This document shows positions 26,629 to 56,290 of a DNA stretch of 56,290 bases, piece by piece; within the stretch, counting starts at the first letter, position 1, and every line of letters starts with the position of its first letter. The position numbers and the translations under genes were made by a program. The notes under the pieces are model-generated. The model made no database searches. It saw only the letters and a list, made by a program, of their open reading frames with translations, and was not told the DNA's origin. Source of the stretch: Actinomycetota bacterium (GTDB lineage Bacteria; Actinomycetota; Actinomycetes; S36-B12); contig JAUXRN010000191.1 in assembly GCA_030681835.1 (NCBI GenBank), positions 1-56,290 of the forward strand. The letters run 5' to 3'.

Positions 26629-26631
26629 GCC

Positions 26632-26676: not shown

Positions 26677-26687
26677 AAGCGGTGCCG

Positions 26688-27374: not shown

Positions 27375-27533
27375 GGTGTTCTCCTTGCTCGGTCCAGCTC
27401 AGTGCTGGGTGCGGTCTTCCGTCACTTCGCAGGATGTGCCGGTCGGGTGGGGACGGAATGTGTCGCGCATGGAGGTCGTGTGGAGATTCCGGTGCGGGCT
27501 GCGTCGCGCGCTGTCGCTGGGCAGGATGGGCAG

Positions 27534-39772: not shown

Positions 39773-39845
39773 ATTGCATACGAAATCGGGCCCGTTAGCC
39801 GACTGAAACCAAAATGTAACCTCATTTCACGAAATCTTGTATACC
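39773..39845. promoter_or_regulatory. Divergent control region: two GntR-type half-palindromes and a repeated ACGAAATC
   Basis: TTGCATACGAA (core 39776-39781) and CTTGTATACCTG (core 39839-39844) match the element in the other island promoters. ACGAAATC occurs at 39780-39787 and 39829-39836. ATTTCACGAAAT (39824-39835) is a dyad. TATACC (39840-39845) may be the -10 for the ABC operon. The remaining gap up to 39912 holds no gene. Confidence 0.6.
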
Positions 39846-39912
39846 TGAGGCCCCTCATTGGGCTACCGTTTCGCCCAACCCACCGTGGGGGTCAACGAAG
39901 CAAGGAGTGTCT

Positions 39913-41118
39913 ATGTATACATCTCGGAGGCTCTGGCCCGCGGCCGTGCTCGCCGCTGGCGCGCTGACGCTGGCCGCCTGCTCGAGCAGCGGGTCCAGTT
40001 CTGAGTCCTCGGCCGCGCCCGCGTCCAGCGAGGCGGCGGCAGCCAGCGAGGCCCCGGCGAGCGAGGCCCCGGCCGATGCGGCCGTGTCCGCCGACGTCAT
40101 CGCCAATGTCGAGGCGGCGAAGGCGCTGCCGGCGTTCACAGCGCCCGGTGCTGCCTTCGACATCACGGATGTGGCGGGCAAGAAGATCTTCGAGATCCCC
40201 TCGGTGCCAAACCCCTTCCTCCAGAGCATCTCGGATTCGATGAAGCAGGCTGCCGAGGCAGCCGGCGCGATCTACACCGTGTGCGACAACCAGGCCGAGG
40301 TCTCGCAGTGGGTGGCGTGCATGGACCAGGCGGTCAACTCCGACCAGGACATCATCCTGCTGAACGGCGCTCCGGACCCGCGGGCACTTCAGCCGCAGAT
40401 CCAGGCTGCCAAGGACGCCGGGATCCCCGTTACCGTGATCCACTTCCATGACGACTCGAACCCGGCTCCGCCCACGTGCGAGGGCTGCGAGAACGTCACT
40501 GCGGTCGTCACGGCCCCGTTCAACGTCGCCGGCAAGGCTGCGGCGGACTGGATCATCGCGGACTCGGGCGGCACGGCGAACACCCTGATCGTCGGTGGAT
40601 CGGACATCCTGCCCAGCCCCGCGACGATCGACACCATGACCAAGGAGTTCGACGAGAACTGCGCTGGATGCGAGTACACGGTCATCAACATCCCCGTGGC
40701 GGACTGGAACACCAAGACCCAGACTGAGATCCAGGCTGCCCTGCAGGCGAACCCGGACATCAACTATGTCTACGTGCTCTACGACGCGATGGTCGCGGGC
40801 GCCGTACCGGCGGTCGAGACCCTTGGTCGCACGGACGTCAAGATCGGCAGCTACAACGGCTCGCCGTTCGCTCTCGACTTCATCGCCCAGGGTGACACCG
40901 TTGCGTTCAACGTCGGCGAGGACACCCCAGGGATCGGGTATGCCGCCATCGATCAGGCGTTCCGCATCCTGACCGGCAACGAGGTCGTGCAGACGCGCAC
41001 GCCCATCCGCATCTGGGATGACACCAACGTGGCCGAGGCAGGCACTCCGGCGCAGCCGGGTGCGGGCTACGGCGACGCGTACGTGGCGGGCTACCAGTCC
41101 CTCTGGACGACTTCGTAG
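39913..41118 (+). CDS. Sugar-type ABC transporter substrate-binding lipoprotein
   Basis: 401 aa from the ATG at 39913 (AAGGAG seven bases upstream). Lipobox LTLAAC, a Ser/Ala-rich linker of about 45 residues, then a periplasmic-binding-protein type 1 (RbsB-like) fold: FEIPSVPNPFLQSISDSMKQ, LLNGAPDPRALQPQIQAAKD and IGYAAIDQAFRILTGNE. The four Cys (CDNQ, WVACM, CEGC) suggest disulfides. It captures a sugar or sugar acid for the ATPase and permease encoded downstream. A strong hairpin after the stop should raise its relative expression. Confidence 0.9.
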   Translation: MYTSRRLWPAAVLAAGALTLAACSSSGSSSESSAAPASSEAAAASEAPASEAPADAAVSADVIANVEAAKALPAFTAPGAAFDITDVAGKKIFEIPSVPNPFLQSISDSMKQAAEAAGAIYTVCDNQAEVSQWVACMDQAVNSDQDIILLNGAPDPRALQPQIQAAKDAGIPVTVIHFHDDSNPAPPTCEGCENVTAVVTAPFNVAGKAAADWIIADSGGTANTLIVGGSDILPSPATIDTMTKEFDENCAGCEYTVINIPVADWNTKTQTEIQAALQANPDINYVYVLYDAMVAGAVPAVETLGRTDVKIGSYNGSPFALDFIAQGDTVAFNVGEDTPGIGYAAIDQAFRILTGNEVVQTRTPIRIWDDTNVAEAGTPAQPGAGYGDAYVAGYQSLWTTS

Positions 41119-41132
41119 ATCCAGCCAGCGCC

Positions 41133-41174
41133 GCCCCGCCCCATGCCGTCCAAACGGACGGCATGGGGCGGGGC
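41133..41174 (+). terminator. Strong 19-bp hairpin after the binding-protein gene
   Basis: GCCCCGCCCCATGCCGTCC (41133-41151) pairs perfectly with 41156-41174 around an AAAC loop; no U-tract follows. It lies inside the operon, so it acts as a partial terminator or as a 3' stabiliser favouring the binding protein over the ATPase. Confidence 0.8.
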
Positions 41175-41219
41175 CGGTGTTAGTACTGTTACGTCTCCCC
41201 GGCGCACGGAGGACTGCCC

Positions 41220-42836
41220 GTGAACAACGAAACGCCGCTGCTGAAGATCACCGACCTCACCAAGGTGTTCGGCGGCCAGAAGGCCCTCGACCGGGTGAAC
41301 CTGACGGTGATGCCAGGTGAGGTCCACGGACTACTGGGAGAGAACGGGTCGGGGAAGTCCACCCTGATCAAGATCCTGTCGGGCTTCTACGAGCCCGAGG
41401 CGGGAAGCCTCGAGGTCAATGGCACCAATGTGCCGTTGCCGCTTCTCCCCGGCCAGTACCGCAGCCTCGGCTTTGAGTTCGTGCACCAGGACCTGGGCCT
41501 GCTGCCCAGCCTCACGGTGACGGAGAACCTGTTTATGGGCCGCGTCGCGGGGTCTCGCGCCAAGTTCCTGTCGTGGCGGTCCGCGCGTCGTGAGGCCGCC
41601 CGTGTGTTCGATGCCTACGACGTCAAGCTTGACCCGGCGGCGCCGGTGGATGAGATACGTCCCGTACAGCGCGCCGTCCTCGCGATCATCCGTGCAGTGG
41701 AAGGCCTCAAGGCATCGCGGGCCTCCGTGGGTAGCAGCGGCGAGCCAAATCTGCTGGTGCTCGATGAGCCGACCGTCTTCCTCCCGCGCCAGGAGGTCGG
41801 TGTCCTCTTCGACCTGGTTCGTGGCATCGTCGCCGACGGCAACAGCGTCTTGTTCGTGTCGCACGACCTCGATGAGGTGCGCCAGATAACGAAGTCAGTC
41901 AGCGTCCTGCGCGACGGGCGCTCTGTCGGCACTTTGGAGACCGCGACGTCCACCAAGCGCGAGCTGGTGAAGCTGATCGTGGGCCGTGACCTCGCTGAAG
42001 CAGACGCGGATGCTCCTGTCACGGCATTGTCCGAGGACATCATCCTCACCGTGAGTGACCTCAACTCCTCACTGGTGCGCGAGGTTTCCTTCGAGCTTCG
42101 GCAGGGGGAGATTCTTGGACTCGCGGGGCTGGTCGGATCGGGATATGAGGACCCCGTCTACTCCCTGTTCGGCGCGGATGCTTCCGCAACGGGTTCCTTC
42201 CAGCTCGGAGATCGGGTTGTCAGCTTCTCGGGCCATCGCGAACGAGACGCGGTACGCATGGGAATGGCGCTCGTGCCCGCTGATCGCAAGATCTTCGGCA
42301 GCATTCCGGACCTGCCAATGGCGGACAACATCAACGTGACCGTTCTGGACCGGTTCTTCTCTAGCGGTCGGCTGAAGCACGGGAAGCTCCGCGATAATGC
42401 GCGATCTCTGCTGAAGGAGTTCGACGTGCGGCCGCCGTTGCCGAGCATGGACTACGGGTTCTTCTCGGGGGGCAATCAGCAGAAGGCGATGATGGCGAAG
42501 TGGCTCCAGTTGCCACCGACCATCCTGCTGCTGCACGAGCCGACCCAGGGGGTCGACATCGGTGCTCGAGAACAGATCTATCAGGTCATCCGTGCAAATG
42601 CGGGGACGATGTCGACCATCGTGGCCAGCTCTGACTACGAGGAGTTGGCGACCCTGTGCGATCGGGTGGGAATATTCGTCAAGGGCCAGCTCCTGGGCTT
42701 CCTCACGGGCGACGAGGTAACTCACGCCAGGATCGCCGAGATGTGTATGGGCCAGGTGGCCGAGGTACGCGAAGCCGTGAGTTCACTGTCCGATTCCCCG
42801 ACTGACGACCTACCCCGGAACGGAGCAGCCACATGA
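41220..42836 (+). CDS. Sugar ABC transporter ATP-binding protein (RbsA/MglA type, two cassettes)
   Basis: 538 aa from the GTG at 41220 with GGAGG upstream. Cassette 1: Walker A GENGSGKST, Walker B NLLVLDEPTVF, H-loop LFVSHDLDEV; its signature is degenerate (RPVQRAVLAIIRAV). Cassette 2: GLAGLVGSGYEDPV (Walker A weak, usual in the family), signature FFSGGNQQKAMMAKW and Walker B ILLLHEPTQGVDIGARE, with His where Asp is usual. It energises uptake through the downstream permease. The stop overlaps the permease start (ATGA). Confidence 0.92.
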   Translation: MNNETPLLKITDLTKVFGGQKALDRVNLTVMPGEVHGLLGENGSGKSTLIKILSGFYEPEAGSLEVNGTNVPLPLLPGQYRSLGFEFVHQDLGLLPSLTVTENLFMGRVAGSRAKFLSWRSARREAARVFDAYDVKLDPAAPVDEIRPVQRAVLAIIRAVEGLKASRASVGSSGEPNLLVLDEPTVFLPRQEVGVLFDLVRGIVADGNSVLFVSHDLDEVRQITKSVSVLRDGRSVGTLETATSTKRELVKLIVGRDLAEADADAPVTALSEDIILTVSDLNSSLVREVSFELRQGEILGLAGLVGSGYEDPVYSLFGADASATGSFQLGDRVVSFSGHRERDAVRMGMALVPADRKIFGSIPDLPMADNINVTVLDRFFSSGRLKHGKLRDNARSLLKEFDVRPPLPSMDYGFFSGGNQQKAMMAKWLQLPPTILLLHEPTQGVDIGAREQIYQVIRANAGTMSTIVASSDYEELATLCDRVGIFVKGQLLGFLTGDEVTHARIAEMCMGQVAEVREAVSSLSDSPTDDLPRNGAAT

Positions 42837-43870
42837 CGACCACCTCGCCATCCGGAATGCCATCAGGCGGACCGCTGGAGAAGAGCGTCACCGTCGAGGT
42901 ACCAGGCTCCCAGCGACGGCTGGCCGGCGCCTTGGAGGCCTATGCGTTGCCGATCGCCTGGGTCGCCATCATCATCATCTTCAGTTTCGTCAAGCCAGAG
43001 ACGTTTGCCCAGTGGTCCAATGTCTCATCCATCCTGTCGTCGAACGCGGTTCTGGTCGTCATCACGCTGGCGCTCATCATTCCGCTCACCACAGGCGACT
43101 TCGACCTCTCAGTGGCCGCCGTGGCGGGCTTGAGCGCGGTCACCGTCGCTCATCTGAATGTGAATGTGGGCTGGCCGCTCTTTGCCTCGATTCTTGCCGC
43201 CCTGGCTGTCGCATTTCTCATCGGTTTGATCAATGGGGGGCTGATCGTCCTGCTGGGAATCGAGAGCCTCATTGTCACCCTTGGCATGAGCACGATCGTC
43301 ACGGGCGTCATGCTCTGGGTTACCGATGCCCGCACGGTGACCGGAGTGGATCAAACGCTCGTGGACATGGTGATCAGGGGACGTTTCCTGGGTATCCCCT
43401 ACCTGTTCTTCTACGCCCTCGTATTGACCATCATCATCTGGTACGTCTTTCAGTTCACGCCCCTAGGCCAGCGCATGCTCGTCGCGGGGCGAAACCGCGA
43501 TGTGGCTCGGCTCGCTGGCATGCGTGTGGGCCTGCTGCGCTGGGGAGCGATGATCGCTGCGTCCCTCATCGCCGCTATCGGAGGGATCCTCATCGTTGGC
43601 CTCTCCAGCTCCGCTGGGCCCTCGACAGGTGTGGACTACCTGCTGCCTGCGTTCGCGGCCGCGTTCCTGGGGTCGACCACTATTCGACCCGGTCGGTTCA
43701 ATGCGTGGGGAACGTTCATCGCCGTCTACTTCCTGGTTACCGGGATCACGGCCCTCCAACTGCTGGGCGCAAAGACATTCGTGCAGTACCTCTTCTACGG
43801 AACGGCCCTGATTCTCGCGGTCGCGCTGTCTCAGCACATCAAGCGACGCAGGCTGAAGCAGGGCTTCTAG
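42833..43870 (+). CDS. Sugar ABC transporter permease (RbsC type)
   Basis: 345 aa, ATG in a 4-bp overlap with the ATPase gene. Eight to ten membrane helices of the branched-sugar permease family: ALIIPLTTGDFDLSVAAVAG is the conserved TGGIDLS-like motif, LIVTLGMSTIVTGVMLWVTD and GRNRDVARLAGMRVGLLRWG (the EAA-like cytoplasmic loop) follow. Only one permease gene is present, consistent with a homodimer. Confidence 0.92.
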   Translation: MTTTSPSGMPSGGPLEKSVTVEVPGSQRRLAGALEAYALPIAWVAIIIIFSFVKPETFAQWSNVSSILSSNAVLVVITLALIIPLTTGDFDLSVAAVAGLSAVTVAHLNVNVGWPLFASILAALAVAFLIGLINGGLIVLLGIESLIVTLGMSTIVTGVMLWVTDARTVTGVDQTLVDMVIRGRFLGIPYLFFYALVLTIIIWYVFQFTPLGQRMLVAGRNRDVARLAGMRVGLLRWGAMIAASLIAAIGGILIVGLSSSAGPSTGVDYLLPAFAAAFLGSTTIRPGRFNAWGTFIAVYFLVTGITALQLLGAKTFVQYLFYGTALILAVALSQHIKRRRLKQGF

Positions 43871-43874
43871 CCCG

Positions 43875-44564
43875 ATGATGCCGGGGGCCGATCATCTGGC
43901 GTCCGTACTGGCGCGCGCGAGGAGCACGGTGACCCCGGTGGACGGGACGACCGAACCCTGGCCGGATATGGACGCATCGTTGGCCGCGGAGGTCGGCGCT
44001 GCCCTGTGCCGACTGATTGGGGCTGAGGGTTCGCCGTACTGGAAGCTGGGCGCAACGGACGTCGCGACCCAAACGCGCTTGGGCGTTCCCGGCCCTCTGT
44101 TTGCCCCGCTTGACCCGGCGTCGGTGCGGAGAGACGTGGTGGCCGCGACGCTTGACCGATCCACGATGATCGCACCCCGCTTCGAGCCAGAGATCGGCGT
44201 GATGTCGGTCGACGGCGTCATCTTCGCCAGCCCCTGCGTGGAGATCGCTGACTGCCGCTTCTCCGGCTGGCGGCTGCCGCCTTGGGGCGTGGTGGCGGAC
44301 GCGACTCTTCAAGGCGAGATGCTCTTTGGACCGCCTGTAGCACCTCAGGACGACGTTGAGGTCACGGTCCGATTCGATGGTCGCGAGGTTGGGCGCGGCC
44401 ACGGTACGTGGCGGGACGCGGTGGCGCGACTGGACCTGCTGCCTCAAGAAGCATCCGCCGCTCTTGTGGCCACGGGGTCGCTGACCTCGCTGTTCGACTG
44501 CGAGCCAGGTGTGTGGACTTTCGACTTCGGCCCGCTGGGCGTACTGACCGTTTCCGTCGTCTAG
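43875..44564 (+). CDS. 2-keto-4-pentenoate-hydratase/FAH-like protein
   Basis: 229 aa. The MhpD-like core is visible: SPYWKLGATDVATQTRLGVP, GPLFAPL and PRFEPEIGVM, where the E-x-E/H metal and catalytic residues lie, and a WRDAVARLDLLP region near the end. Normal members are about 260 aa, so this one is short. Likely hydrates or cleaves a keto-enol acid derived from the imported compound. It starts 4 bp after the permease stop. Confidence 0.78.
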   Translation: MMPGADHLASVLARARSTVTPVDGTTEPWPDMDASLAAEVGAALCRLIGAEGSPYWKLGATDVATQTRLGVPGPLFAPLDPASVRRDVVAATLDRSTMIAPRFEPEIGVMSVDGVIFASPCVEIADCRFSGWRLPPWGVVADATLQGEMLFGPPVAPQDDVEVTVRFDGREVGRGHGTWRDAVARLDLLPQEASAALVATGSLTSLFDCEPGVWTFDFGPLGVLTVSVV

Positions 44565-44577
44565 CCAGCCCTCTGAT

Positions 44578-45816
44578 ATGTCCCCACTCATGGCATCCTC
44601 CCGTCGGCCTCGATCGATGGGCGAGGGGATCTTCGCGTCAGTACTCGTCCTCGCCGCGGGAAGCTTCACGATCATTGGCGCCTCCGCCAACGCTCCCCTG
44701 ATCAGCCAGTCGCTGAACCTCAGCGAAGTCGGAGTTGGTGCTATCGCCTCTGTTGCCTACCTCGGTGCCCTGGTGACAGCCCCCATGAGTGGCCGGCTGA
44801 CCGATCGCTCCGGTCCTGCGCCGGTCATCCTTGTCGGCCTGCTGTCCCTTGCGCTGGGGAGCGTTCTGGCGGGGCTGTCATGGACGGCCGCGGTGTTCTA
44901 CCTCGGCATTCTGGTGGCCGGGTTCGGCTACGGGGCCGTGAACCCGGCCACCACGGTTCTCGCCAACCCGGCAACCGCACGCCGCCGCGGCCTGGTCATG
45001 AGTATCAAGCAGTCGGGCGTTCCGGTAGGCGGCATTGTGGCTGGAGCCGTGCTCCCGACGCTCGGTCTGGCCCTCGGCTGGCGTTGGGCATTCGCGCTGA
45101 CCTCGGCGGTCTGCCTCGCGATCGGACTGGGCATCTTCGTGCGAGGCGGGTACCAGGCGCAGACGACCAAGCCGCAGGGGGTGGCACATCTTTCGCACAG
45201 GCGGATGCGCCTGCCCTACGGTCTCGTGTTCGGCTTGATCATCGCCGGCATCCAAGTGAGCTTGTTCGCCTTCACCGCCATCTACCTAGTACAGGCGCGT
45301 GGCTTCTCCGCCTCCGCGGCCGGACTCGGCGTATCGACGTTGCTTCTGGGCGGGTTGATCGGTCGCCCATTCTGGGGTTGGCTGTCGGACCTTGTCACCC
45401 GGCACCGCCTCATGGTCCTCGAGGGCATCGGCCTGCTGGGGGCCGCGTTCATCGTCGCCTTGGCGCTGGTACCCGATGAGCTCGTCCTGGCGACCCTCGT
45501 CCTCCTCGGGGTGTGCTCTGTCGGGTGGAACGGTGTCTACATCGCCGTTGTGGCCGAGTCCACCGAGCCAGGGAGCGTGGGCAGATCGACGGGCACGTCG
45601 TTGGCGTTGATCAATGCGGGCGCGATTGCCTTTCCCGTGATCATCGGGACCATCGTGGGCTGGTCGGACAGCTGGGTCGTGGGCCTGCTCGTGCTTGGTG
45701 GACTGAGTCTGGCGGCAACACTGGTCGCGGTGGCAACCAGCGAGCGGGTGCCTGATCCCGCGGCGGTGCTGCCGGGGACGGATCGATGGGACCTGACTGA
45801 AGGAGGACGGACATGA
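44578..45816 (+). CDS. Major facilitator superfamily transporter (island copy 1)
   Basis: 412 aa with twelve helices. The loop 2-3 motif GRLTDRSGPAPVILVG is the MFS signature, and VNPATTVLANPATARRRGLV with SIKQSGVPVGG is typical of the CynX/NimT-like (organic anion) group. It likely moves an organic acid in or out. It follows the hydratase gene by 13 bp and overlaps the aldo-keto reductase gene by 4 bp. Confidence 0.88.
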   Translation: MSPLMASSRRPRSMGEGIFASVLVLAAGSFTIIGASANAPLISQSLNLSEVGVGAIASVAYLGALVTAPMSGRLTDRSGPAPVILVGLLSLALGSVLAGLSWTAAVFYLGILVAGFGYGAVNPATTVLANPATARRRGLVMSIKQSGVPVGGIVAGAVLPTLGLALGWRWAFALTSAVCLAIGLGIFVRGGYQAQTTKPQGVAHLSHRRMRLPYGLVFGLIIAGIQVSLFAFTAIYLVQARGFSASAAGLGVSTLLLGGLIGRPFWGWLSDLVTRHRLMVLEGIGLLGAAFIVALALVPDELVLATLVLLGVCSVGWNGVYIAVVAESTEPGSVGRSTGTSLALINAGAIAFPVIIGTIVGWSDSWVVGLLVLGGLSLAATLVAVATSERVPDPAAVLPGTDRWDLTEGGRT

Positions 45817-46814
45817 CCTCGATGAGCCATGTTCAGCTCGGGACGACCGGGATGCCCGTATCGCGCCTGGCGCTGGGGACAGCGACCTTCGGCGGACAGT
45901 GTGACGAGGAGCTCTCATTTCGGATACTTGACTACGCTCATGAGCTGGGAATCACGCTCTTGGATACGGCCGACAAGTATCCCCTCGGTAGTTCGTTCGA
46001 GTCGGCCGGCATTTCTGAGGCGATCGTAGGGAGGTGGATCAGCAGTCGGAAGGCAAGTGTCGTCATCGCGACCAAGGTGCACGGCCAGACTGGGCCGCAT
46101 CCATGGGATCAAGGACTAGGTCGCCGTCACATCAGGGAGGCGGTGGAAGCGTCACTGCGCCGGCTGCAGGTCGACGCTATCGACCTCTACCAACTCCATC
46201 GTCCCGATCCGTCCACGCCGATCGAGGAGACGCTCGAGGTTCTCACCGACCTTGTCCGAGAGGGCAAGGTGCGCTACGTGGGTTGCTCGAACTTCTTGGC
46301 GTATCAGGTAGCCCGTGCATTGGGGCGGAGTGAGGCGAAGGGCCTGGTGTCCTTTGCTTCGGTGCAACCGCGCTACAACCTGCTCTTTCGCCAGCATGAG
46401 CGGGAGTTGATGCCCTTGTGCACTGAGGCGGGTCTGGGTGTCCTCCCGTACAACCTCCTGGCGGGCGGATTGCTCAGCGGCAAGCACACCAGGGGCTTGC
46501 CTCCGGCAGCTTCGACGCGGTTCGCGTCGACCGGTGCCGCGGAGCTGTACCGCGAGCGGTACTGGAACGATGCCGCTTTCGATGCAGTGGAGCAGATCAC
46601 GGTCGCGGCGACCGACCTCGGGCTGACGCTTCCGGTTCTGGCAGCGGCCTGGGTGCTGCACCAACCAGTCGTGACCTCAGCGATCGTTGGAGTGACCCGA
46701 CCCGAGCACCTTGATGCACCGTACGCGGCCTTGCAGGTCCACCTGGAGCCGAGCACACTCGCGCGCCTGGACCTGATCACACGGGCGTTTCGCGAGGGCG
46801 ACGCGGTCCAGTAG
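45813..46814 (+). CDS. Aldo/keto reductase
   Basis: 333 aa NADPH-dependent TIM-barrel reductase. The catalytic tetrad is Asp and Tyr in LLDTADKYPLG, Lys in VIATKVHG and His in LYQLHRPDP. VGCSNFLAYQVARAL and TSAIVGVTRPEHLD (cofactor phosphate loop) are canonical. It interconverts aldehydes or ketones and alcohols. Last gene of the plus-strand operon starting with the binding protein. Confidence 0.92.
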   Translation: MTSMSHVQLGTTGMPVSRLALGTATFGGQCDEELSFRILDYAHELGITLLDTADKYPLGSSFESAGISEAIVGRWISSRKASVVIATKVHGQTGPHPWDQGLGRRHIREAVEASLRRLQVDAIDLYQLHRPDPSTPIEETLEVLTDLVREGKVRYVGCSNFLAYQVARALGRSEAKGLVSFASVQPRYNLLFRQHERELMPLCTEAGLGVLPYNLLAGGLLSGKHTRGLPPAASTRFASTGAAELYRERYWNDAAFDAVEQITVAATDLGLTLPVLAAAWVLHQPVVTSAIVGVTRPEHLDAPYAALQVHLEPSTLARLDLITRAFREGDAVQ

Positions 46815-46825
46815 CACGGGACCTA

Positions 46826-48055
46826 TCACACCCGCTCGCCTCCGCTCATGACGAGGATCTTGCGATCCTGGTCCTGGAGGCACTGAGGTGAACGCAGCGG
46901 GTCGTCGCGCAGGGCCAGGAGGTCCGCTCGCTTGCCTACGTCAATGGTGCCCACGGTGTCACTGACTCCAAGGAGGCGCGCGATGTTCACGGTGATGGTC
47001 CTGAGCGCCTCCTTGGGTGACATGCCGACGATCTCGATGTACGAAACCACTTCCTCGGCGCAACTGCCCTGCGGAAAGTGCGTCAGGCCAGCATCGCCAC
47101 CGGCAACGATCGGGACCCCGGCCTCATGTGCGCGCCGCACGCTAGCGGCGTGGCGCTCGTGGGTGCGCTTGTGCTGGTCGACGATCACCGACGGGATCCC
47201 CATGCTGCCTCCCCGGACCGCGAAGGCTCGATACATCGAGAGAGTGGGCGACAGCGTCACGTTGTTGCGGACCATGAGTTCCAGCGACTCGTCGTCGATG
47301 TAGATCCCATGCTCGATCGTCTGGGCGCCGTGGAACGCAGCGGCGCGAACCGACTCAGCGGACTCAGCGTGGGCCGCGACGGGAACCCCTTGGTACTTCG
47401 CCTCTGACATCACGGCCGCGAACTCCTGCTCGGACAGGCCGTTGCGCTCAGCAGGGCACAGGGGATTGAAGCCGGTCCCGCTCACGCCGACCTTGATCCA
47501 GGCCACCCCGTCCTTGAGCTGGCGTCGAATGGTGGCCCGTGCCTCGTGCGGACCGATGACTTGCACGCCGAGGCCGTATCGGTAGGGGCGGTCTTCGAAT
47601 ACATGCGTGGGATGGAAGTCGGCTAGTCCGCCGGGTCCGGACAGGATCTGCCCCGCCGGATGGATGCTTGGCCCCCGCGCGTCCCCACGTGCGACCGCAT
47701 TGCGGACCTCCACTCCTATGTTGCCGCGGCTTCCGACGTCCCGGACAGTCGTGAAGCCCGCTCGCAGCAGGATCTCGGCGTTGACGACGGCGTCGATGGT
47801 TGCCTCGGGAATCGACTTGCGCAACTCGATGTCGTAGGGGTCGGCGACATCGCGGTAGATGAGGTGGCAGTGGGCATCCATCAGTCCGGGGATCACATGG
47901 CCACCCTCCAGGTCGATCGTGTCGTCGCCCGGCTGCGCAGCCACCATGTCACCCATCTCGGAGATGACACCGCCATCAATTGCGAGGGAGCCCGAGCTGG
48001 CTTCGAAGTCTTCGCCTGTGTAGAAGGTGGCGTTGGTCAGGATTGTTCGAGTCAT
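46826..48055 (-). CDS. Metal-dependent amidohydrolase (imidazolonepropionase/prolidase-like)
   Basis: 409 aa from the ATG at 48055 with GGGAG upstream. The metal ligands are HxH in DAHCHLIYRD, Lys in WIKVGVSG, His in AAHAES and IEHGIY, and Asp in GGDAGLTHF. ARLLGVSDTVGTIDVGKRAD closes the barrel. It hydrolyses a cyclic or linear amide, for instance a dipeptide, lactam or N-acyl compound. Last gene of the operon CoA-transferase, DehI-like, lyase-like, amidohydrolase. Confidence 0.9.
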   Translation of the reverse strand: MTRTILTNATFYTGEDFEASSGSLAIDGGVISEMGDMVAAQPGDDTIDLEGGHVIPGLMDAHCHLIYRDVADPYDIELRKSIPEATIDAVVNAEILLRAGFTTVRDVGSRGNIGVEVRNAVARGDARGPSIHPAGQILSGPGGLADFHPTHVFEDRPYRYGLGVQVIGPHEARATIRRQLKDGVAWIKVGVSGTGFNPLCPAERNGLSEQEFAAVMSEAKYQGVPVAAHAESAESVRAAAFHGAQTIEHGIYIDDESLELMVRNNVTLSPTLSMYRAFAVRGGSMGIPSVIVDQHKRTHERHAASVRRAHEAGVPIVAGGDAGLTHFPQGSCAEEVVSYIEIVGMSPKEALRTITVNIARLLGVSDTVGTIDVGKRADLLALRDDPLRSPQCLQDQDRKILVMSGGERV

Positions 48056-48082
48056 GTCCACTCCCAGATCGATCAGCGGGTG

Positions 48083-49033
48083 TCAGCGATACTGCTGGGC
48101 AAAGGCTTGGAACTCGTCGTAGGTCCCATACTGAGCCACCTTCGCCACGGATGGGACCCCGAGCAACGCGCCGACATGTGCGCTGATGCGGCGGATCGCG
48201 TCGAGGTCCACTCCTGTGTCGACGCCCATTTCTCGGAACAGGTGGACGACGTCCTCGGTGGGCACGTTGCCCATGCCGAGCACCGAAACCGGCATCGCGA
48301 TCCCACCTCCGTAGCCGCCAATGCAGGACTCGAAGGAGGTCGCGCCGTTCTGATATGCGGCGACGACATTCGCAAGAGCCATCCCTGTGCGTTCATGCAG
48401 ATGGACGCCGAGAGCGATGTCGGGGAATCGGGTGGTGATGGCCTTGACTCGGTCCCCGACTGCACGTGGGTTCGACATGCCGATGCTGTCGGCAATGCTC
48501 ACTTCGCGCACTCCGAAGCCGTAGAAGGTATCGATGAGTCCGAGAAGCCGATCCTCGGGGACCGGACCCTCGTATGGGCAGAGGAAGCAGATCCCCATAC
48601 CGACGTCAATATGGACTCCGTTTGCCAGGGCAAGCTCGGTTATCAACCTGATCTGCTCGACGTTCTCGGCAATGGACATGTTGGAGTTCTTCTTGCTGTA
48701 CGTCTCCGACGCCACGATGAGCGCCGAGATCTTGGTGCATCCGGCGTCGATAGCGCGTTGCGCCCCCCTCAGGTTGGGGACCAGCGCGCGGTAGGTGACA
48801 CCCTCCCGAATCGGGAGCGACCGCACGAGGTCATCAGCATCGGCCAGCATGGGGATGACCTTCGGATGGACGAAGCCGGTGACCTCGATCTCCGGGACCC
48901 CGGCATCGGCGATCATGCTGATCAGGTCGAGCTTCTCGTCGGTCGTGGGCACGTGCCATCCGGACTCGTGCACCATCGTCTGCAACCCGTCCCGCAGCAG
49001 CACTTCGACGATGCGTACCTCAGGCTGGCTCAT
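48083..49033 (-). CDS. HMG-CoA-lyase-like aldolase (copy 1), lacking the canonical loop Cys
   Basis: 316 aa from the ATG at 49033 (GGAAGGA upstream). TIM barrel of the HMGL family: Arg14-Asp15 and Gln18 in LLRDGLQTM, His211 and His213 in LGVHLHERTG are the catalytic and metal residues. The loop that in true HMG-CoA lyase reads GLGGC-P here reads ESCIGGYGGGIAMP, so the catalytic Cys is Gly, though Cys237 lies nearby. Retro-aldol cleavage of a 3-hydroxyacyl-CoA is likely but the substrate differs. It overlaps the DehI-like gene by 14 bp. Confidence 0.87.
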   Translation of the reverse strand: MSQPEVRIVEVLLRDGLQTMVHESGWHVPTTDEKLDLISMIADAGVPEIEVTGFVHPKVIPMLADADDLVRSLPIREGVTYRALVPNLRGAQRAIDAGCTKISALIVASETYSKKNSNMSIAENVEQIRLITELALANGVHIDVGMGICFLCPYEGPVPEDRLLGLIDTFYGFGVREVSIADSIGMSNPRAVGDRVKAITTRFPDIALGVHLHERTGMALANVVAAYQNGATSFESCIGGYGGGIAMPVSVLGMGNVPTEDVVHLFREMGVDTGVDLDAIRRISAHVGALLGVPSVAKVAQYGTYDEFQAFAQQYR

Positions 49034-49787
49034 GGGCGATCCTTCCGTTGTGGGTGTGAGGGCTATTCGTGAGTTGGTCAAGGAATTCACCCTCGGCGAT
49101 CATGCTGGCCACGCCGACGGGGAACCAGCTGAACTCCATAGCGGCATCCGGTGGCAAGCTGTCGAGGACACCACCGTCCCGCGTCCCCAGGCCCGCGTCG
49201 GACAAGAGGTCTTGGGCTGCAGCCAGGACGGGCTGGCGCGCGGCGAGTATGTCGCCGCCGTCCGCTGCGAGACGCGTTTGTCGCCAGAGTTGGCGGAGTT
49301 CGTCGGGCCAGGGGGCCAGGTCCCGCCACAGCCCCGGGACAATGGGGCCGCCGTGGCAGCCACGGATGTCCTGCCATATGTCCGCGCATGGAGGTGGCAG
49401 TGGGGGTGCCATAACGCCAGGCTGCCAGGTCGTCGTCGGGCTCGAGATGGCCAGGCTGAACAGCAAGTTGGTCGGATTGGCGGCGCGGTATCGCCCAATG
49501 GCCTTGCTGACTCCTGCGGCACGAGGCCCCTGCCCCTGGGCCCTGGCCGGAAGGGCGGCCACGGCCAGTGAGCGAGCCTTTTCGGGGAATCCGGACGTGT
49601 TGCCCAGGTCGACGACGGCTGCGAGCCGGTCGACCGCGAGCGCGAAGGCGTCCGGGTATGGCGCGAGCCTGCGATACACCGTCGGCACGAAGGTGGACCC
49701 CAACAGGCCTCGGATGCGTGCGTACCCTGCCGCGATCTCGGGTGTCGCCTGATCTTCCGGCACCTCGTCCGACACGACCCGGATCAT
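49020..49787 (-). CDS. DehI-like protein (haloacid-dehalogenase family, AhpD-related fold)
   Basis: 255 aa. Two internal repeats, each of the form 'GYARIRGLLGSTFVPTVYRR-LAPYPDAF' (first) and 'DIWQDIRG...VPGLWRDLAPWPDEL' (second), match the pseudo-symmetric halves of DehI (halocarboxylic acid dehalogenase) and related carboxymuconolactone-decarboxylase-like bundles. Whether it dehalogenates is not shown: the family also holds proteins of unknown activity. The ATG at 49787 overlaps the CoA-transferase stop by 4 bp. Confidence 0.65.
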   Translation of the reverse strand: MIRVVSDEVPEDQATPEIAAGYARIRGLLGSTFVPTVYRRLAPYPDAFALAVDRLAAVVDLGNTSGFPEKARSLAVAALPARAQGQGPRAAGVSKAIGRYRAANPTNLLFSLAISSPTTTWQPGVMAPPLPPPCADIWQDIRGCHGGPIVPGLWRDLAPWPDELRQLWRQTRLAADGGDILAARQPVLAAAQDLLSDAGLGTRDGGVLDSLPPDAAMEFSWFPVGVASMIAEGEFLDQLTNSPHTHNGRIAHEPA

Positions 49788-51001
49788 CGGGATCCTTGGG
49801 CCGACGTGATCTCCGATGCGGAGAGTCCGAGCATGCCGGCCAGCACCTCGTCGGTGTGCTCGCCAAGAGCGGGACCGGCCCAGCGAATGCTGCCCGGCGT
49901 GCGGGAGGCCCGTGGGAAGACGTTCTGCATCGTCACGGAGCCGAGCACGGGGTGAGGGACCTTGACGATGGCCTCGCGAGCCATGAAATGTGGATCCTCA
50001 AGCATGTCCGGGGCGCGGTAGATGGGTCCCGCTGGGACCCCAGCCTTCGCCAGCAACTCAAGGAGATCTGCGGAGGGCACGGTCGCCGTCCACGCAGACA
50101 CGAGGGCATCGAGTTCCCGCTGGCGCTCTCCGCGGGCCGTGTGAGTCGCGTAGCGCGGATCGTCAGCCAGGTGTTCGGCGCCCATGACCTCAGTGAGTCG
50201 ACGGAAGACGCTGTCCTGGTTTCCAGCGATCAACACGTCACGGCCGTCAAGGGTGGGGTACACGTTGGACGGTGCTACTCCGGGGAGGGTTGCCCCGGTT
50301 CGCGGACGGATCCATCCCTCGGTGACGTAGTCGGGGATCAAGGACTCCATGAAGGCAAGGACGGATTCGTAGAGCGCCACGTCAAGTACCTGGCCCTGCC
50401 CCGAGGTGCGTCGCTCGAGGAGGGCCGCGACCGCACCAAGTGCCCCGAGCGCGCCGGAGAGGGCGTCACCGATGGCGATCCCCGTACGAACTGGGGGCCT
50501 ATCGGCGTCCCCGACCACCGCTCGCAGCCCGCCCATCGCCTCGCCGATCGCTCCGAAGCCGGCTCGATCGGTGTACGGGCCCGTTTGCCCGAAGCCGCTC
50601 ACGCGCACCACGACGATGCCCGGGTTGACCTGCCGGAGCGCTTCGTAGGACAAGCCCCACTTCTCCAGGGTGCCCGGACGGAAGTTCTCAATGAGGACGT
50701 CGGCCAAGGCCACCAGTCGCAGTACCGCGGCCCGGCCGCCTTCGGTTCGAACGTCCAGGGTGACCGACTTCTTGTTCCGGCCAATGACCGACCACCACAG
50801 CGATTCCCCTTCAGGTGTCAGCTGCCCCCATTGCCGCATCGGATCCCCGGTTCCGGGCAATTCGATCTTGACAACCTCGGCACCCAGGTCGCCTAGCAAC
50901 TGACCGGCGAATGGTCCCGCGATCAGCTGGCCCAGTTCGATCACCACGACTCCGGCCAGCGGCCCGACAGGCGCGACACCTGGGTCGCTCGATGGCTGCA
51001 T
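49784..51001 (-). CDS. Class III CoA-transferase (CaiB/BaiF/Frc), copy 1
   Basis: 405 aa. VVVIELGQLIAGPFAGQLLG opens the family; EVVKIELPGTGDPMRQWG, NKKSVTLDVRT, LIENFRPGTLEKWG and SGFGQTGPY follow, and Asp in RTGIAIGDALSG corresponds to the catalytic aspartate that carries the acyl group. It activates a carboxylic acid to its CoA ester. First gene of the operon with the lyase-like gene; promoter TTGACC-17-TATGCT lies upstream with a GTATAC element next to it. Confidence 0.92.
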   Translation of the reverse strand: MQPSSDPGVAPVGPLAGVVVIELGQLIAGPFAGQLLGDLGAEVVKIELPGTGDPMRQWGQLTPEGESLWWSVIGRNKKSVTLDVRTEGGRAAVLRLVALADVLIENFRPGTLEKWGLSYEALRQVNPGIVVVRVSGFGQTGPYTDRAGFGAIGEAMGGLRAVVGDADRPPVRTGIAIGDALSGALGALGAVAALLERRTSGQGQVLDVALYESVLAFMESLIPDYVTEGWIRPRTGATLPGVAPSNVYPTLDGRDVLIAGNQDSVFRRLTEVMGAEHLADDPRYATHTARGERQRELDALVSAWTATVPSADLLELLAKAGVPAGPIYRAPDMLEDPHFMAREAIVKVPHPVLGSVTMQNVFPRASRTPGSIRWAGPALGEHTDEVLAGMLGLSASEITSAQGSR

Positions 51002-51033
51002 GGACGTCCTCTGGCCGGGGGCGGACTCTTGCG

Positions 51034-51078
51034 AGCATAGGGAAGGCTCAGGAATTGGTCAATCAGTTTGTATACGTT
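51034..51078 (-). promoter_or_regulatory. Promoter of the CoA-transferase operon with a GTATAC element
   Basis: Minus strand: TTGACC (51062-51057), 17 bp, TATGCT (51039-51034), leader of about 26 nt with AGAGGA before the ATG at 51001. TTTGTATACGTTC, core GTATAC at 51070-51075, abuts the -35 on its upstream side. Confidence 0.65.
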
Positions 51079-51140
51079 CGGACGGTTTGCGCTGGGCAGC
51101 GAAGCGTGGGAACTGCGAATTGCGGCAGTATTAGTGCTAG

Positions 51141-51157
51141 GTCGCATACAATTTGGC
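51141..51157 (+). promoter_or_regulatory. GCATAC element over the -10 of the MFS gene
   Basis: GTCGCATACAATTTGG has core GCATAC at 51144-51149 and TACAAT (51147-51152) as a good -10, six bases before the GTG at 51158. The -35 is weak. Leaderless transcription is likely. Confidence 0.55.
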
Positions 51158-52324
51158 GTGGCCACGCCGTCCTTCACCCGGGTCATCATCGCCACCACCA
51201 GCGCGTCGACTGCTGGGTCGATCCCGGTATTCCTCCTCGGGGCCATGGGCCCGTTCGTGCGCGCGGACCTGTCCTTTAGCGAGACCCAGTTGGGTATAGC
51301 CATCTCGACCTTCTGGTTGTTCATGGCCGCCGGGGGGATCACCGGTGGGCGCGTGGGCCAGCGGCTTGGGGCGACCCTCACCACGAGACTCGGCGTGGCC
51401 GGATCCGTCGCCGCCATCGTCGGCATGGCGTTGGCTCCGACCTGGTCGATGGTCGTCCTCTTCATGGCATGCGCGGGAGCGGCCAACGCGCTTTCCCAGC
51501 CCGCCGTGGACCTGGCGCTGTTCGAGGCGGTTCCGCGAGCTCGACTGAGCCTCGCGTTCGGGATCAAGCAAACGGCCCTGCCCGGGGCAGCCCTCGTGGC
51601 CGGCATGGGGATCCCGATCCTTGCCAGCTCGGTTGGCTGGCGCTGGGCATTCATCGTGTGCGCGATGGTTGCGCTCCCGGCCCTCGTAGCAATGCCGCGA
51701 CTGCGCTCCGGCCATCGGCGGGACGCCGAGGCCCACGTTGCTTCCCAAGCCAGACTCTCGGGGGTCTACGCCCTTGCTGCCGTGTTCACCCTCGCCATGA
51801 TCGCGGTGTCCGCCACCGGGGCGTTCTATGTTGAGTCCGCGATCAGCGGCGGTAGCACGGCGAATGCGGCCGGGGTCTTCTTCGCCATCGGCGGTGCGTG
51901 CGGTATCGCCGGACGCTTCGTCTTCGCATGGAAGCTGGGAACGGTGGCGAGGCCACTGATGGCGACGAGCGTGATCATGCTGGTCGGAGGAACTGGCGTG
52001 ACCTGCCTGTCGGTCGCGCCCCCAGGGTTGACCCTGCTCATGGTGACCATCGTCGCAATCGGCGCGGGGTGGGGGTGGAACGGCCTGCTCACGCTCGCGG
52101 TGGTGAGCAGGTACCCGCAGGCACCCGCCCGTGCGTCGGGGTACATCGTTCTCGGCGCCGGGGCCGGGGGAGTCCTGGGGCCAGTGCTGTTCGGCTTGAC
52201 CGTCCAGCACCTTGGGTTCTCCATCGCGTGGCTGGCCGCGGGCCTGTGCTTCTTCGCGGCCGCAGCGATGCTCGTGCGCCTGTCGCGAAGGCAGGCGCCA
52301 ATTCCCCGGAGGGCGTCGGACTAG
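51158..52324 (+). CDS. Major facilitator superfamily transporter (island copy 2)
   Basis: 388 aa from the GTG at 51158, chosen because VATPSFTRVIIATTSASTAG begins the first membrane region; an upstream TTG at 51068 would lie inside the operator. Twelve helices; GGRVGQRLGATLTTRLG is the loop 2-3 motif and FGIKQTALPGAALVAGMGIP resembles the other island transporter. Probably carries the organic acid or amide handled by the island. Shares CTAG with the convergent GntR gene. Confidence 0.85.
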   Translation: MATPSFTRVIIATTSASTAGSIPVFLLGAMGPFVRADLSFSETQLGIAISTFWLFMAAGGITGGRVGQRLGATLTTRLGVAGSVAAIVGMALAPTWSMVVLFMACAGAANALSQPAVDLALFEAVPRARLSLAFGIKQTALPGAALVAGMGIPILASSVGWRWAFIVCAMVALPALVAMPRLRSGHRRDAEAHVASQARLSGVYALAAVFTLAMIAVSATGAFYVESAISGGSTANAAGVFFAIGGACGIAGRFVFAWKLGTVARPLMATSVIMLVGGTGVTCLSVAPPGLTLLMVTIVAIGAGWGWNGLLTLAVVSRYPQAPARASGYIVLGAGAGGVLGPVLFGLTVQHLGFSIAWLAAGLCFFAAAAMLVRLSRRQAPIPRRASD

Positions 52325-53010
52325 GTCGACGTCTCCTGCGGCGCCGGGTGCCTCAGTTGGGCCATGAGGCTGGACTTCGACGAAAGCACATGCGTACGCA
52401 TGACATGCTCTGCCCAGTCTGGGTCTTTCGCCCGGAACGCGTCGAGCAGTTCGCGGTGGTTGTTGTTGCTGCGGGTGTAGCCCATAGGTGCGTAATTGTG
52501 CACCGCCTGAAGGATGACTGGCAGGACGACGAGGACGTTGCGCGCCGGCAGTGCGTAACTGGCGTCGGCGCCCTGCGCGACCGAGCCGTGAAACTCGGCG
52601 TTCAACTCCGTGAAAGCCGTCACGGTTTCGGGGTCACCCGCACGCCCTTCCCTGGCCACGGTCTCCATCCGGTCGCACAATGCCGAAAGGCCCTGAATCT
52701 GATCTTCTGACAGACGCGTAGCGGCTCTGCGCGCCACGAAGGCTTCCACGGCCGCTCGTAGGTCGTACATGCCCTCCACGTCGTAGGAGTGCCAGTCAAC
52801 GACACGGGCGCCCCTGTGCGGGATGACCTCGACGAGGCCTTCGGCCTGCAGGCGGCGCAGGCTCTCACGAATGGGAGTTCGGCTCAGTCCGTACTGCTCA
52901 GCTAGTTCGGTCTCCGCCAGGTGCCGGCCACCTGTGAGGATGCCCGCAACAATGTCGTTGCGCAGTAACTGATAGGCCCGGTCGGCTGCCCGCTCCAGAT
53001 TGACGTTCAC
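52321..53010 (-). CDS. GntR-family regulator, FCD (FadR C-terminal) subfamily
   Basis: 229 aa from the GTG at 53010. The winged helix contains LAEQYGLSRTPIRESLRRL (the GntR recognition motif) and HRGARVVDW. The FCD ligand domain has the metal-coordinating pattern DLRAAVE, His in ELNAEFHGSV, and His in NNNHRELLDAF and EHVMRTHV, used to bind carboxylate effectors. It is 28 bp downstream of the second lyase-like gene, in the same operon. It is the only regulator in the island, so it is the likely reader of the GTATAC/GCATAC sites. Confidence 0.92.
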   Translation of the reverse strand: MNVNLERAADRAYQLLRNDIVAGILTGGRHLAETELAEQYGLSRTPIRESLRRLQAEGLVEVIPHRGARVVDWHSYDVEGMYDLRAAVEAFVARRAATRLSEDQIQGLSALCDRMETVAREGRAGDPETVTAFTELNAEFHGSVAQGADASYALPARNVLVVLPVILQAVHNYAPMGYTRSNNNHRELLDAFRAKDPDWAEHVMRTHVLSSKSSLMAQLRHPAPQETST

Positions 53011-53038
53011 GGCCGCAGATTAGTGCCTGAGGACATGG

Positions 53039-54031
53039 CTACTCCGATGTCGAAGGGATTTCCTTGCCCGGCTGGGCCAGGATCTCAGACCACACGATGT
53101 TCTCCATCTCGGTTCGCGCACCACCGCGCGTGAAGTGGCCGAAAGCGGGGCTGCCGGTGAGGCTTGAGGCTAGGGCGACCGTCTCGCCATAGCGATTCAG
53201 GTCGATGCCTGTTGCGATACCCATGTACTGGAGCATGGCCGCGAGGTCCTCCGTGGGGGTATTGCCCAACACGTCTACGTCTCCGGGCAGCCAAAGATCG
53301 CCCCCGAGTCCGCAGAAGGCCCCTTCGACCCAATCGACGCCTGCCTGCAAAGCGGCCAACGTGTTGGCGAGGGCGAAGCCCCCCCTCGTGTGGAGATGCA
53401 CGCCGACGGCCAGGTCCGGATAGGCGGTCTTGATCCGGCGGACGGCGCGGTAGACCTGTTGCGGGTCGGCGAGGCCGGCAGAGTCAGCCACGTAGATGCT
53501 CGACGCACCGGCGTCCACGATGCGCTTGACGAAAGCGTCCAGTCGCTCGGGAGACACGATCCCGGTTCCGTACGCGAAGAAGGACATGACGATGGCAACC
53601 GTCACAGGTGTGTCGCCGGATGACTCGAGGATCTCGTCGAGTTCGTCCCACATCTGGGGGTGCGTGCGGCGCTGGTTGATCATCGTCACATCTGGGTCGG
53701 TGCACGTCAGTGCCACGATCTCGTTGACCCCTGCATCCAGGGCACGCCTCGCGCCGCGGGCGTTGGGGACGAGGCCGCGGTAGCGGACACCGGGTTCCCG
53801 AGGAACCACGGCGAGCAGGGCCTCGGCGTCGGCAAGCTGCGGCAGGACCTTGGGGTGGGCGAAGGAAGCGACCTCAACTTCCGTGATACCCGAGGCCAGG
53901 ATGCTTTCCACCAGCCGGAGCTTGTCCTTGGTGGGGATGGTTGCTCGGACAGCCTGAAGGCCATCACGCATCCCCACTTCCACCACGCGCATGGCCCGAG
54001 GGAGCGGTAGGGAATCGTCGACACCCGCCAC
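53039..54031 (-). CDS. HMG-CoA-lyase-like aldolase (copy 2), lacking the canonical loop Cys
   Basis: 330 aa from the GTG at 54031. Arg22-Asp23 and Gln26 (GMRDGLQAV), His212 and His214 (GVHLHTRGG) are in place, as in copy 1. The active-site loop reads AFCGLGGDLWLPG, so the Cys of the HMGL signature is Asp245 and another Cys (240) lies five residues earlier. It is about 35% similar by eye to copy 1, so a diverged paralogue. Expected to cleave a hydroxyacyl-CoA formed by a CoA-transferase of the island. Confidence 0.87.
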   Translation of the reverse strand: MAGVDDSLPLPRAMRVVEVGMRDGLQAVRATIPTKDKLRLVESILASGITEVEVASFAHPKVLPQLADAEALLAVVPREPGVRYRGLVPNARGARRALDAGVNEIVALTCTDPDVTMINQRRTHPQMWDELDEILESSGDTPVTVAIVMSFFAYGTGIVSPERLDAFVKRIVDAGASSIYVADSAGLADPQQVYRAVRRIKTAYPDLAVGVHLHTRGGFALANTLAALQAGVDWVEGAFCGLGGDLWLPGDVDVLGNTPTEDLAAMLQYMGIATGIDLNRYGETVALASSLTGSPAFGHFTRGGARTEMENIVWSEILAQPGKEIPSTSE

Positions 54032-54054
54032 GTCTGCCTCCCTGGTCCGAGGGA

Positions 54055-54079
54055 AGCATAGCCGAAATTGTGTACATAT
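54055..54079 (-). promoter_or_regulatory. Operator-containing promoter of the second lyase-gntR operon
   Basis: TATGCT (54060-54055, minus strand) is a -10 candidate with TTGTGTACATAT (core 54070-54075) in the spacer. The -35 is poor, consistent with a controlled promoter. Confidence 0.5.
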
Positions 54080-54178
54080 CTGGTGGTCGCCAGGTTGAGA
54101 ATCGGAAGGGAACCGCGGTTATAGGAGGTCGATCCCCCTTACCCTGGGGCGGCGGCCGTGCCAGCCGAGCCAAAGTCG

Positions 54179-54207
54179 TTGACGCCGTGGCCGCAGTTGC
54201 ATACAGT
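54179..54207 (+). promoter_or_regulatory. Amidase promoter with GCATAC operator on the -10
   Basis: TTGACG (54179-54184), exactly 17 bp, TACAGT (54202-54207). TTGCATACAGT, core GCATAC at 54199-54204, overlaps the -10, a classic repression position. The leader of about 20 nt contains GGAGGAGG before the GTG at 54235. Confidence 0.7.
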
Positions 54208-55602: not shown

Positions 55603-56290
55603 CTGAGCACCCCGGGCTGGACCCCCGGACCCTGCAACCGGCGTCCATGGGCCTCGGTGCACTCGAGGGACTTCGAGTCCTCGACGTAGCGACCATGATG
55701 GCTGGTCCATGGGCGGCCACCTACCTTGCCGACTTCGGAGCAGATGTCGTCAAGGCGGAACTGCCGGTCAAGGGTGATCCCGTGCGCCTCTGGGGGAGCC
55801 AGGTCGAAGGAACGGCCCTGGCCTGGAAGGGACTCTCGCGCAACAAGCGGCTCGTCACCCTGGCACTCAACACACCCGAGGGGCAGCAGATGCTGCTTCG
55901 GCTGGTCAAGGATTTCGACGTACTCGTCGAGAACTACCGCCCAGGTGTCATGGAACGATGGGGGCTCAGCCCAGAGCGACTTCTCGAGGTCAATCCACGA
56001 CTGATCATCCTCCGGACGTCGGGATATGGGCAGGATGGCCCCTACGCGACAAAGCCTGGGTTCGGGACTCTTGCAGAGGCATTCTCGGGCCTGTCCTACA
56101 TCACCGGGGCCGAGGATCGACCCCCAGTCCTGTCTGGCTATCCGTTGGCCGATGGAGTGACCGCGCTCGCCGGAGCGATGGCCATCCTCGCCGCGCTCTA
56201 CTGGCGCGATGTCAAAGGAGGCACCGGTCAGGTCATCGACAACGCGATCATCGAAGCCAACTATCGCCTCATCGACTACACCATGCTGGA
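55599..56290 (+). CDS. Class III CoA-transferase, copy 2 (3' end beyond window)
   Basis: At least 230 codons from the GTG at 55599 (GGAGGAG five bases upstream). RVLDVATMMAGPWAATYLAD, DVVKAELPVKGDPVRLWG, LVENYRPGVMERWG and TSGYGQDGPYATKPG are family blocks; Asp in YPLADGVTALAG matches the catalytic aspartate. The visible part is intact. It is a paralogue of the gene at 49784-51001 and is translationally coupled to the amidase. Confidence 0.92.
   Translation, partial: MTEHPGLDPRTLQPASMGLGALEGLRVLDVATMMAGPWAATYLADFGADVVKAELPVKGDPVRLWGSQVEGTALAWKGLSRNKRLVTLALNTPEGQQMLLRLVKDFDVLVENYRPGVMERWGLSPERLLEVNPRLIILRTSGYGQDGPYATKPGFGTLAEAFSGLSYITGAEDRPPVLSGYPLADGVTALAGAMAILAALYWRDVKGGTGQVIDNAIIEANYRLIDYTML

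Follow-up and report, generated by a model that had tools for sequence, protein, structure and literature searches.

A candidate GntR/FCD regulon with paired operator-like elements in a catabolic gene island of an uncultured Actinomycetota bacterium

Paired elements and the regulator gene

The window described here is the full 56,290-nucleotide stretch of contig JAUXRN010000191.1 from an uncultured Actinomycetota bacterium. It contains an island of catabolic genes with three divergent intergenic control regions (IG1, IG2, and IG3) and a gene for a GntR/FCD regulator (gntR). A sequence-only reading of this DNA proposed that a short element, present twice in each control region, ties the island into one GntR/FCD regulon. 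The elements span 14.4 kb (39773-54207), and all six were located where they had been placed: TTGCATAC at 39774, TTGTATAC at 39837, TTTGTATAC at 51067, CGCATACAAT at 51143, TTGTGTAC at 54068, and TTGCATAC again at 54197. As judged from the comparisons below, the island genes are most likely controlled together by one GntR-type protein encoded inside the island.

IG1 lies between a gene for an AceE/transketolase-like thiamine-diphosphate enzyme (37345..39717, minus strand, identified by family scans) and the gene for the substrate-binding protein (Peripla_BP_4) of an ATP-binding cassette (ABC) importer (39907..41118, plus strand). Site IG1a (TTGCATACGA, 39774..39783, plus strand) is upstream of the predicted minus-strand AceE/transketolase-like operon, and site IG1b (TTGTATACCT, 39837..39846, plus strand) is upstream of the predicted importer operon. 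A seventh near-match, ATGTATACAT (39913..39922, plus strand), falls at the start codon of the binding-protein gene; it is not conserved in the related genome G002 and is probably incidental.

IG2 lies between a gene for a family III coenzyme A (CoA) transferase (49784..51001, minus strand, Pfam score 420 bits) and a gene for a major facilitator superfamily (MFS) transporter (51158..52324, plus strand), the start of which is inferred and is near or at the transcript start. Site IG2a (TTTGTATACGT, 51067..51077, plus strand; also cited as site 51068) immediately precedes the -35 predicted for the minus-strand CoA-transferase promoter. Site IG2b (TTGTATGCGA, 51142..51151, minus strand; TCGCATACAA on the plus strand) covers the TACAAT presumed to be the -10 of the MFS gene.

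IG3 lies between a gene for an HMGL-like lyase (lyase 2, 53039..54031, minus strand, family scan), the first gene of the predicted gntR operon, and an amidase gene (54235..55602, plus strand) whose start is inferred as the GTG after GGAGGAGGT. Site IG3a (TTGTGTACAT, 54068..54077, plus strand) is upstream of the minus-strand lyase-gntR operon. Site IG3b (TTGCATACAG, 54197..54206, plus strand) overlaps the -10 of a promoter-like sequence of the amidase operon.

The gntR gene (52321..53010, minus strand) encodes 229 amino acids and is the proposed source of the binding protein. It has an N-terminal GntR winged helix (PF00392, 69 bits, cut-off 27) and a C-terminal FCD ligand domain (PF07729, 75.7 bits, cut-off 24.3). 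Three histidines, His141, His185, and His207, are invariant in 10 aligned sequences, with spacings of 44 and 22. The metal-binding histidines of TM0439, as given in the accessible part of its description, are His134, 174, and 196 (spacings 40 and 22); the comparison is one of spacing. The invariant histidines would agree with a carboxylate-binding FCD pocket that contains a metal. The best NCBIfam matches, phnR_burk (96.7 bits, cut-off 271.5) and CsiR (73 bits, cut-off 218), cover nearly the whole length, and identity as a Burkholderia-type PhnR or CsiR equivalog was rejected at these scores. The closest solved relative by sequence is remote (7xp0/7xp1, 80.6 bits) and is presumably PmiR.

The GntR protein had been called the only regulator in the island. 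No other regulator is present in the 17 scanned proteins of the island, but a TetR gene is located 0.8 kb outside its left end, and the genome encodes four other FCD regulators.

Conservation and distribution of the elements

Relatives of the island were sought in 166 genomes of the order, including the source genome (G000). A close regulator is present in four others: 98% identical in G080, 67% in G104 and G105, and 61% in G002, which belongs to another family. The islands of all four are syntenic to the window as far as the contigs reach, and in each of them this gntR is located within the island. A class-level sample of 394 genomes, searched for closer regulators with E up to 1e-50, gave matches in G000, G002, and G276.

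In IG1, site a is identical through TTGCATACGAAA and site b is retained as TTGTATAC in both G080 and G002. The pair is therefore present in all three genomes that cover this region, the window included, and besides the window it is checkable only in these two. The remaining counts cover all five genomes, the window included. IG2a is retained as TTTGTATAC in 5/5. The ATACAA element before the MFS gene (IG2b) is also present in 5/5, as TCG[CA]ATACAAT in G105, G104, and G002 and as TCGCATACAATG in G080. IG3a (TTGTGTAC) and IG3b (GTTGCATACA) are each found in all five. For G002, the IG2b assignment rests on the five-way alignment and that of IG3a on the presence of the motif near the same gene. 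Sites thus occur at every divergent promoter and are conserved across species. The sequence-only reading would have been abandoned had related islands lacked the sites; they are conserved in the syntenic islands and in more distant clusters.

In pairwise alignment with G002, identical site columns number 18/20 in IG1, 8/20 in IG2, and 12/20 in IG3 (85/169, 58/136, and 88/181 in the rest of the gaps). With G104, 18/20 and 19/20 site columns are identical (rest of the gaps, 57/136 and 74/181). A weight matrix was built from 14 sites of G002, G104, and G105, without the window and without the nearly identical G080. It ranks the six window sites 1 to 6 in the window, which is a test of rank and not of motif choice, the training sites having been located by the pattern of the sequence-only reading or by neighbourhood (IG2b by the aligned string). 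Six TTGYRTAC matches inside coding matches were left out of this matrix (L039 1508; L040 239, 3971, and 7499; L041 15075 and 16494).

A GntR/FCD regulator of 35-41% identity is encoded in 20 genomes of three genera, a set cut at E 1.7e-37 after inspection of the list. These distant clusters have a fuller palindrome, TTGTATACAA, in the corresponding promoters. All 20 stretches around the regulator contain at least one TTGYRTAC site. Two sites are present in the CoA-transferase/lyase divergent region in 15/15 stretches containing it (in L072, one touches the end of the lyase match), and one or two at the importer promoter in 12/12. Some TTGYRTAC sites of these clusters are within genes; L063 7903 and L065 13291, for instance, are inside the CoA-transferase gene.

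The palindrome TTGTATACAA occurs in 17 of the 20 genomes with this regulator and in 21 of the 146 others, among which G164, with two palindromes on a small contig, was counted; the Fisher p of 3e-10 is too small, because the 20 genomes fall in three genera and related genomes were counted. Twenty-two of the 35 places in the 17 genomes are at most 20 kb from gntR. Of the palindromes of other genomes that lie away from gntR loci, 16 were examined in 15 stretches; 12 are within the longest open reading frame (ORF) called and four are outside (L080, L083, L084, and L089 3848; mechanical ORFs). Across the order, the regulator subfamily goes together with the operator and the gene set more strongly than the sequence-only reading could know.

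A symmetric matrix from 87 distant-cluster sites, collected by the pattern TTGTATAC with coding and intergenic sites unsorted, ranks the start-codon palindrome at 39913 first and the site at 54197 only ninth. The window sites would thus be a local, less symmetric version of the motif.

Palindromes were also noticed at other loci. TTGTATACAA at L084 4525 (G045), and similarly at L085 5910 (G047), is near isochorismatase-like, acyl-CoA dehydrogenase, and MmgE/PrpD genes, approximately 11 kb past the importer site of the distant cluster. It is intergenic in L084, and in L085 it is inside a mechanical ORF whose start may be later. These places may extend the distant-cluster regulon. In L075 (G276, 9985-10160), a gene for a 43% identical GntR adjoins the same CoA-transferase and lyase pair, and the gntR-lyase gap contains TTGTTCACAA and TTGCATGCAA, a related but different palindrome.

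The degenerate pattern TTGYRTAC has five matches in the window, every one in the three gaps, against 0.93 expected; five or more were reached in 1 of 100 shuffles. The consensus TTGTATACAA was first met in other genomes and then scanned with up to two mismatches. In the window, this gives seven matches, all in the island (the six sites and 39913-39922), and seven were reached in none of 100 shuffles. The whole genome has 50 such places versus 41 for the control. Seven of the 50 are inside the 14.4 kb, where approximately 0.19 would be expected from the rest; the Poisson chance of six or seven places there is 6e-8 and 1e-9, respectively. Many equally good matches in unrelated promoters, named beforehand as grounds for doubt, were not seen as far as the ranking by the 14-site matrix and this count go, the remaining 43 places having been counted without sorting into promoter and coding positions.

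Promoter-like sequences and mode of regulation

Scanning 14.8 kb by consensus gave three promoter-like sequences, a number no higher than chance (shuffle mean 1.8). Two of the three belong to sites. The sequence TTGACC-17-TATGCT of the CoA-transferase operon (51034..51062, minus strand) is directly downstream of site 51068. In the amidase operon, TTGACG-17-TACAGT (54179..54207, plus strand) has its -10 overlapped by site 54197. Counterparts of the former are TTGAC[AC]-17-TATGCT in G080, G104, and G105 and TTGACA-17-TAACCT in G002, and five genomes share the arrangement of GTATACAAA, four bases, and TTGAC. Counterparts of the latter are TTGACA-17-TACAGT in G105 and G104 and TTGACG-18-TACAAT in G002. 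The earlier statement that several sites overlap a -10 or abut a -35 holds by consensus for these two; promoters at the other four are putative. In four of the five distant clusters printed, the lyase site lies, as seen by eye, in an 18-nucleotide spacer between GTGGAC and CACAAT, CACACT, or AATAAT.

In the window, 51147-51160 has five bases between the presumed -10 TACAAT and the GTG of the MFS gene. Because of this short distance, the MFS transcript is suggested to be leaderless.

The recognizable motif is best described as a FadR-type palindrome, TTGT-AT-ACAA, of which the window sites appear to be imperfect copies. According to the available part of PMC4494728, the FadR-subfamily operator is TKGT/ACMA, with a 2-nucleotide spacer in the GntR, HpxS, HypR, MdcY, PrpR, and UxuR groups, and among 100 divergent operons of FadR type that include a regulator gene and a pair of sites, the sites seem to act separately in 71. 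TTGT-AT-ACAA would fit both this operator and the two-site arrangement. In its combination of GntR and FCD domains, putative TKGT-N2-ACMA palindromes, paired sites in each divergent region, and catabolic genes, the island resembles the regulons in that part of the source. It differs in the degenerate right half of the window sites; the palindrome (TKGT-N2/3-ACMA) is complete, as TTGTATACAA, in the distant clusters. AceE-like enzymes, family III CoA-transferases, HMGL-like lyases, and amidases are not among the gene contents met in the same part of PMC4494728.

HypR of Streptomyces coelicolor, as presented in the available part of PMC6608401, is likewise an actinobacterial FCD regulator and represses a catabolic operon and itself. 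Its motif is CTNTGC(A/C)ATGTCAC and not TTGTATACAA, and its targets are hydroxyproline genes. TTGTATACAA was not found in the GntR/FCD literature among the matches listed. The sole literature match for TTGTATAC with GntR concerns a phage, judging by its title. Among the best matches on GntR/CoA-transferase/ABC-transporter regulons of Actinobacteria, none includes HMG-CoA lyase, and a search for GntR regulons of Acidimicrobiia, a class name that was guessed, returned none.

It is considered quite probable that the six elements serve as operators for the GntR/FCD protein (52321-53010), which would repress the island promoters until an effector releases it. Site conservation, linkage to the regulator subfamily, and motif class all point to a single regulon across the island, as originally proposed. 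The island GntR is taken as the binder because of the last two. At every promoter of the three divergent regions, a GntR dimer would bind a single TTGT-AT-ACAA-like palindrome. Without inducer, RNA polymerase would be blocked at the AceE-like operon, the ABC-importer operon, the MFS gene, the amidase/CoA-transferase operon, and the regulator's own lyase-gntR operon. The CoA-transferase-lyase-amidohydrolase operon would be controlled from the site that immediately precedes its -35. GntR would be released when its FCD pocket holds a carboxylate-like substrate or intermediate. Ligand-relieved occlusion of polymerase is the simplest reading. The -10 overlap at 54197 and the lyase site between hexamers in distant clusters suit repression. 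The gntR gene starts 28 bases past the lyase gene and is therefore probably autoregulated.

Several observations weigh against this assignment, in addition to the limits given above for the 14-site matrix and the Fisher value. IG3a is out of register in the five-way alignment (window and G080 versus G104, G105, and G002), and IG2b and IG3a are out of register in the pairwise alignment with G002. Each of the six window sites has two mismatches to TTGTATACAA, and perfect copies are present in 0/5 window-type genomes (G000, G080, G104, G105, and G002). The window has 14 GYATAC matches versus 13.5 expected. Genome-wide, TTGYRTAC is not enriched (51 matches, most of them TTGCGTAC, versus 59 for the reversed-pattern control). 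The genome encodes five FCD proteins in total, and the location of site 51068 upstream of a -35 is activator-like.

The chance level of GYATAC and the genome-wide count of TTGYRTAC would agree with short matches picked by eye, a reading that is scarcely credible: it is already contradicted by conservation in other genomes and by ranks 1 to 6 from a matrix made of other genomes. As genome-wide markers, both patterns were rejected, neither being above its control; the 8-mer by itself lacks specificity. Of 10 genome matches to the narrower TTGYATAC, four are island sites; five of the other six are within ORFs picked by length and third-position GC content (GC3), and one is outside. Counts of TTGYATAC are below the reversed control in G080 (12 vs. 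16), G104 (50 vs. 91), G105 (30 vs. 47), and G002 (21 vs. 42).

With five FCD genes in the genome and FadR-type motifs being alike between regulators, the elements might be real operators of another FCD regulator. This is improbable, given that the island itself contains this gntR in 4/4 syntenic genomes and that the gene is close to the sites in the distant clusters. Places with up to two mismatches to TTGTATACAA are absent from two contigs with other FCD genes (C97 and C266). On C85 there is a single such place, which is approximately 5 kb away from the gene and falls within an ORF. The two on C165 both read TTGGATACAA, one before the regulator gene and one at its end.

The C165 locus (L090 in G000) contains GGATTGGATACAATCC twice, at 1179 and 3025, with perfect six-base arms. 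One copy immediately precedes a CoA-transferase gene, and the other, located where the FCD regulator gene ends, immediately precedes an acyl-CoA dehydrogenase gene. The genome thus probably has a second FCD regulon, distinct from that of the island.

Slightly less probable still is that the elements are -10-type core promoter sequences served by no specific regulator. TACAGT, TACAAT, and TATACC are readable as -10 hexamers, and TTGTATAC includes TATAC. The conserved block is larger than a hexamer (TTGCATACGAAA and TTTGTATAC), site 51068 is outside its predicted promoter, and the 10-mer is associated with a regulator subfamily across the order, all of which count against this reading.

A rather unlikely variant, which overlaps the repressor reading and differs only in sign, keeps the same regulon and makes the protein mainly an activator, or an activator of some promoters (the CoA-transferase operon) and repressor of others. 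Site 51068 abuts the -35 of TTGACC-17-TATGCT in an order kept in five genomes, and binding upstream of -35 regions is stated for CitO, an FCD activator, in the accessible part of the HypR paper (PMC6608401). The overlap of 54197 with a -10 and the position of the lyase site between promoter-like hexamers in 4/5 distant clusters printed speak against activation there. Within the preferred, repressor-based reading, the CoA-transferase promoter may be activated rather than repressed.

Genes of the island and the predicted pathway

The remaining island genes were assigned by family scans except where indicated. Genes for a 3-hydroxyisobutyrate-type dehydrogenase (35493..36374, minus strand) and a zinc alcohol dehydrogenase (36371..37495, minus strand) run in the same direction as the AceE-like gene and are probably in its operon. 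The sequence-only reading had labelled that enzyme a transketolase; it is closer to AceE-type pyruvate dehydrogenase E1.

On the plus strand, the binding-protein gene is followed by genes for the ABC ATPase (41220..42836), the ABC permease (42833..43870), a weak relative of 2-oxo-3-hexenedioate decarboxylase (43875..44564; NCBIfam 30.9 bits, far below the cut-off of 350.55), an MFS transporter (44578..45816), and an aldo/keto reductase (45813..46814). On the minus strand are an amidohydrolase gene (46826..48061), HMGL-like lyase 1 (48083..49090), whose nearest solved relatives are 3-hydroxy-3-methylglutaryl-CoA (HMG-CoA) lyases, and a gene without a Pfam or NCBIfam match (49087..49866), over which a second frame (49020-49787) is also open.

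Two CoA-transferases had been counted in the pathway. The second (55551..56288, plus strand) is an open frame of uncertain start cut by the contig end, and it was putatively assigned by homology: the region past the amidase in L036, L039, L040, and L041 matches the first CoA-transferase at 37-39%. Elsewhere in the window (22010-29595), two histidine kinase/response regulator pairs flank a protein of the Vgb_lyase (virginiamycin B lyase) family.

The core common to window-type and distant clusters is a CoA-transferase, an HMGL-like lyase, and an ABC importer. The AceE-like enzyme is present in three fetched distant clusters (L052-L054). The distant clusters scanned (L052, L065, and L084 further along) add a luciferase-like monooxygenase, flavin mononucleotide (FMN) reductases, a nitrilase-like hydrolase, and acyl-CoA dehydrogenases. 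The substrate may be a branched acid that receives CoA by transfer and is then split by the lyase.

Tentatively, and with rather less than even confidence, the regulon may mark an undescribed catabolic pathway that several genera within a single order of actinobacteria have in common. After import, a branched acid containing nitrogen would be opened by the action of amidases or monooxygenases. A family III CoA-transferase would activate it, HMG-CoA-lyase-like enzymes would cleave it, and a free-standing AceE-like enzyme would complete the pathway, with a single dual-acting FCD regulator in control of all steps.

The predicted regulon is new, and its proposed mechanism is ordinary, of the familiar FCD kind. 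A loosely annotated row of genes becomes one coherent, testable regulon in an uncultured Actinomycetota, and the operator sequence can be used to find further genes of the pathway.

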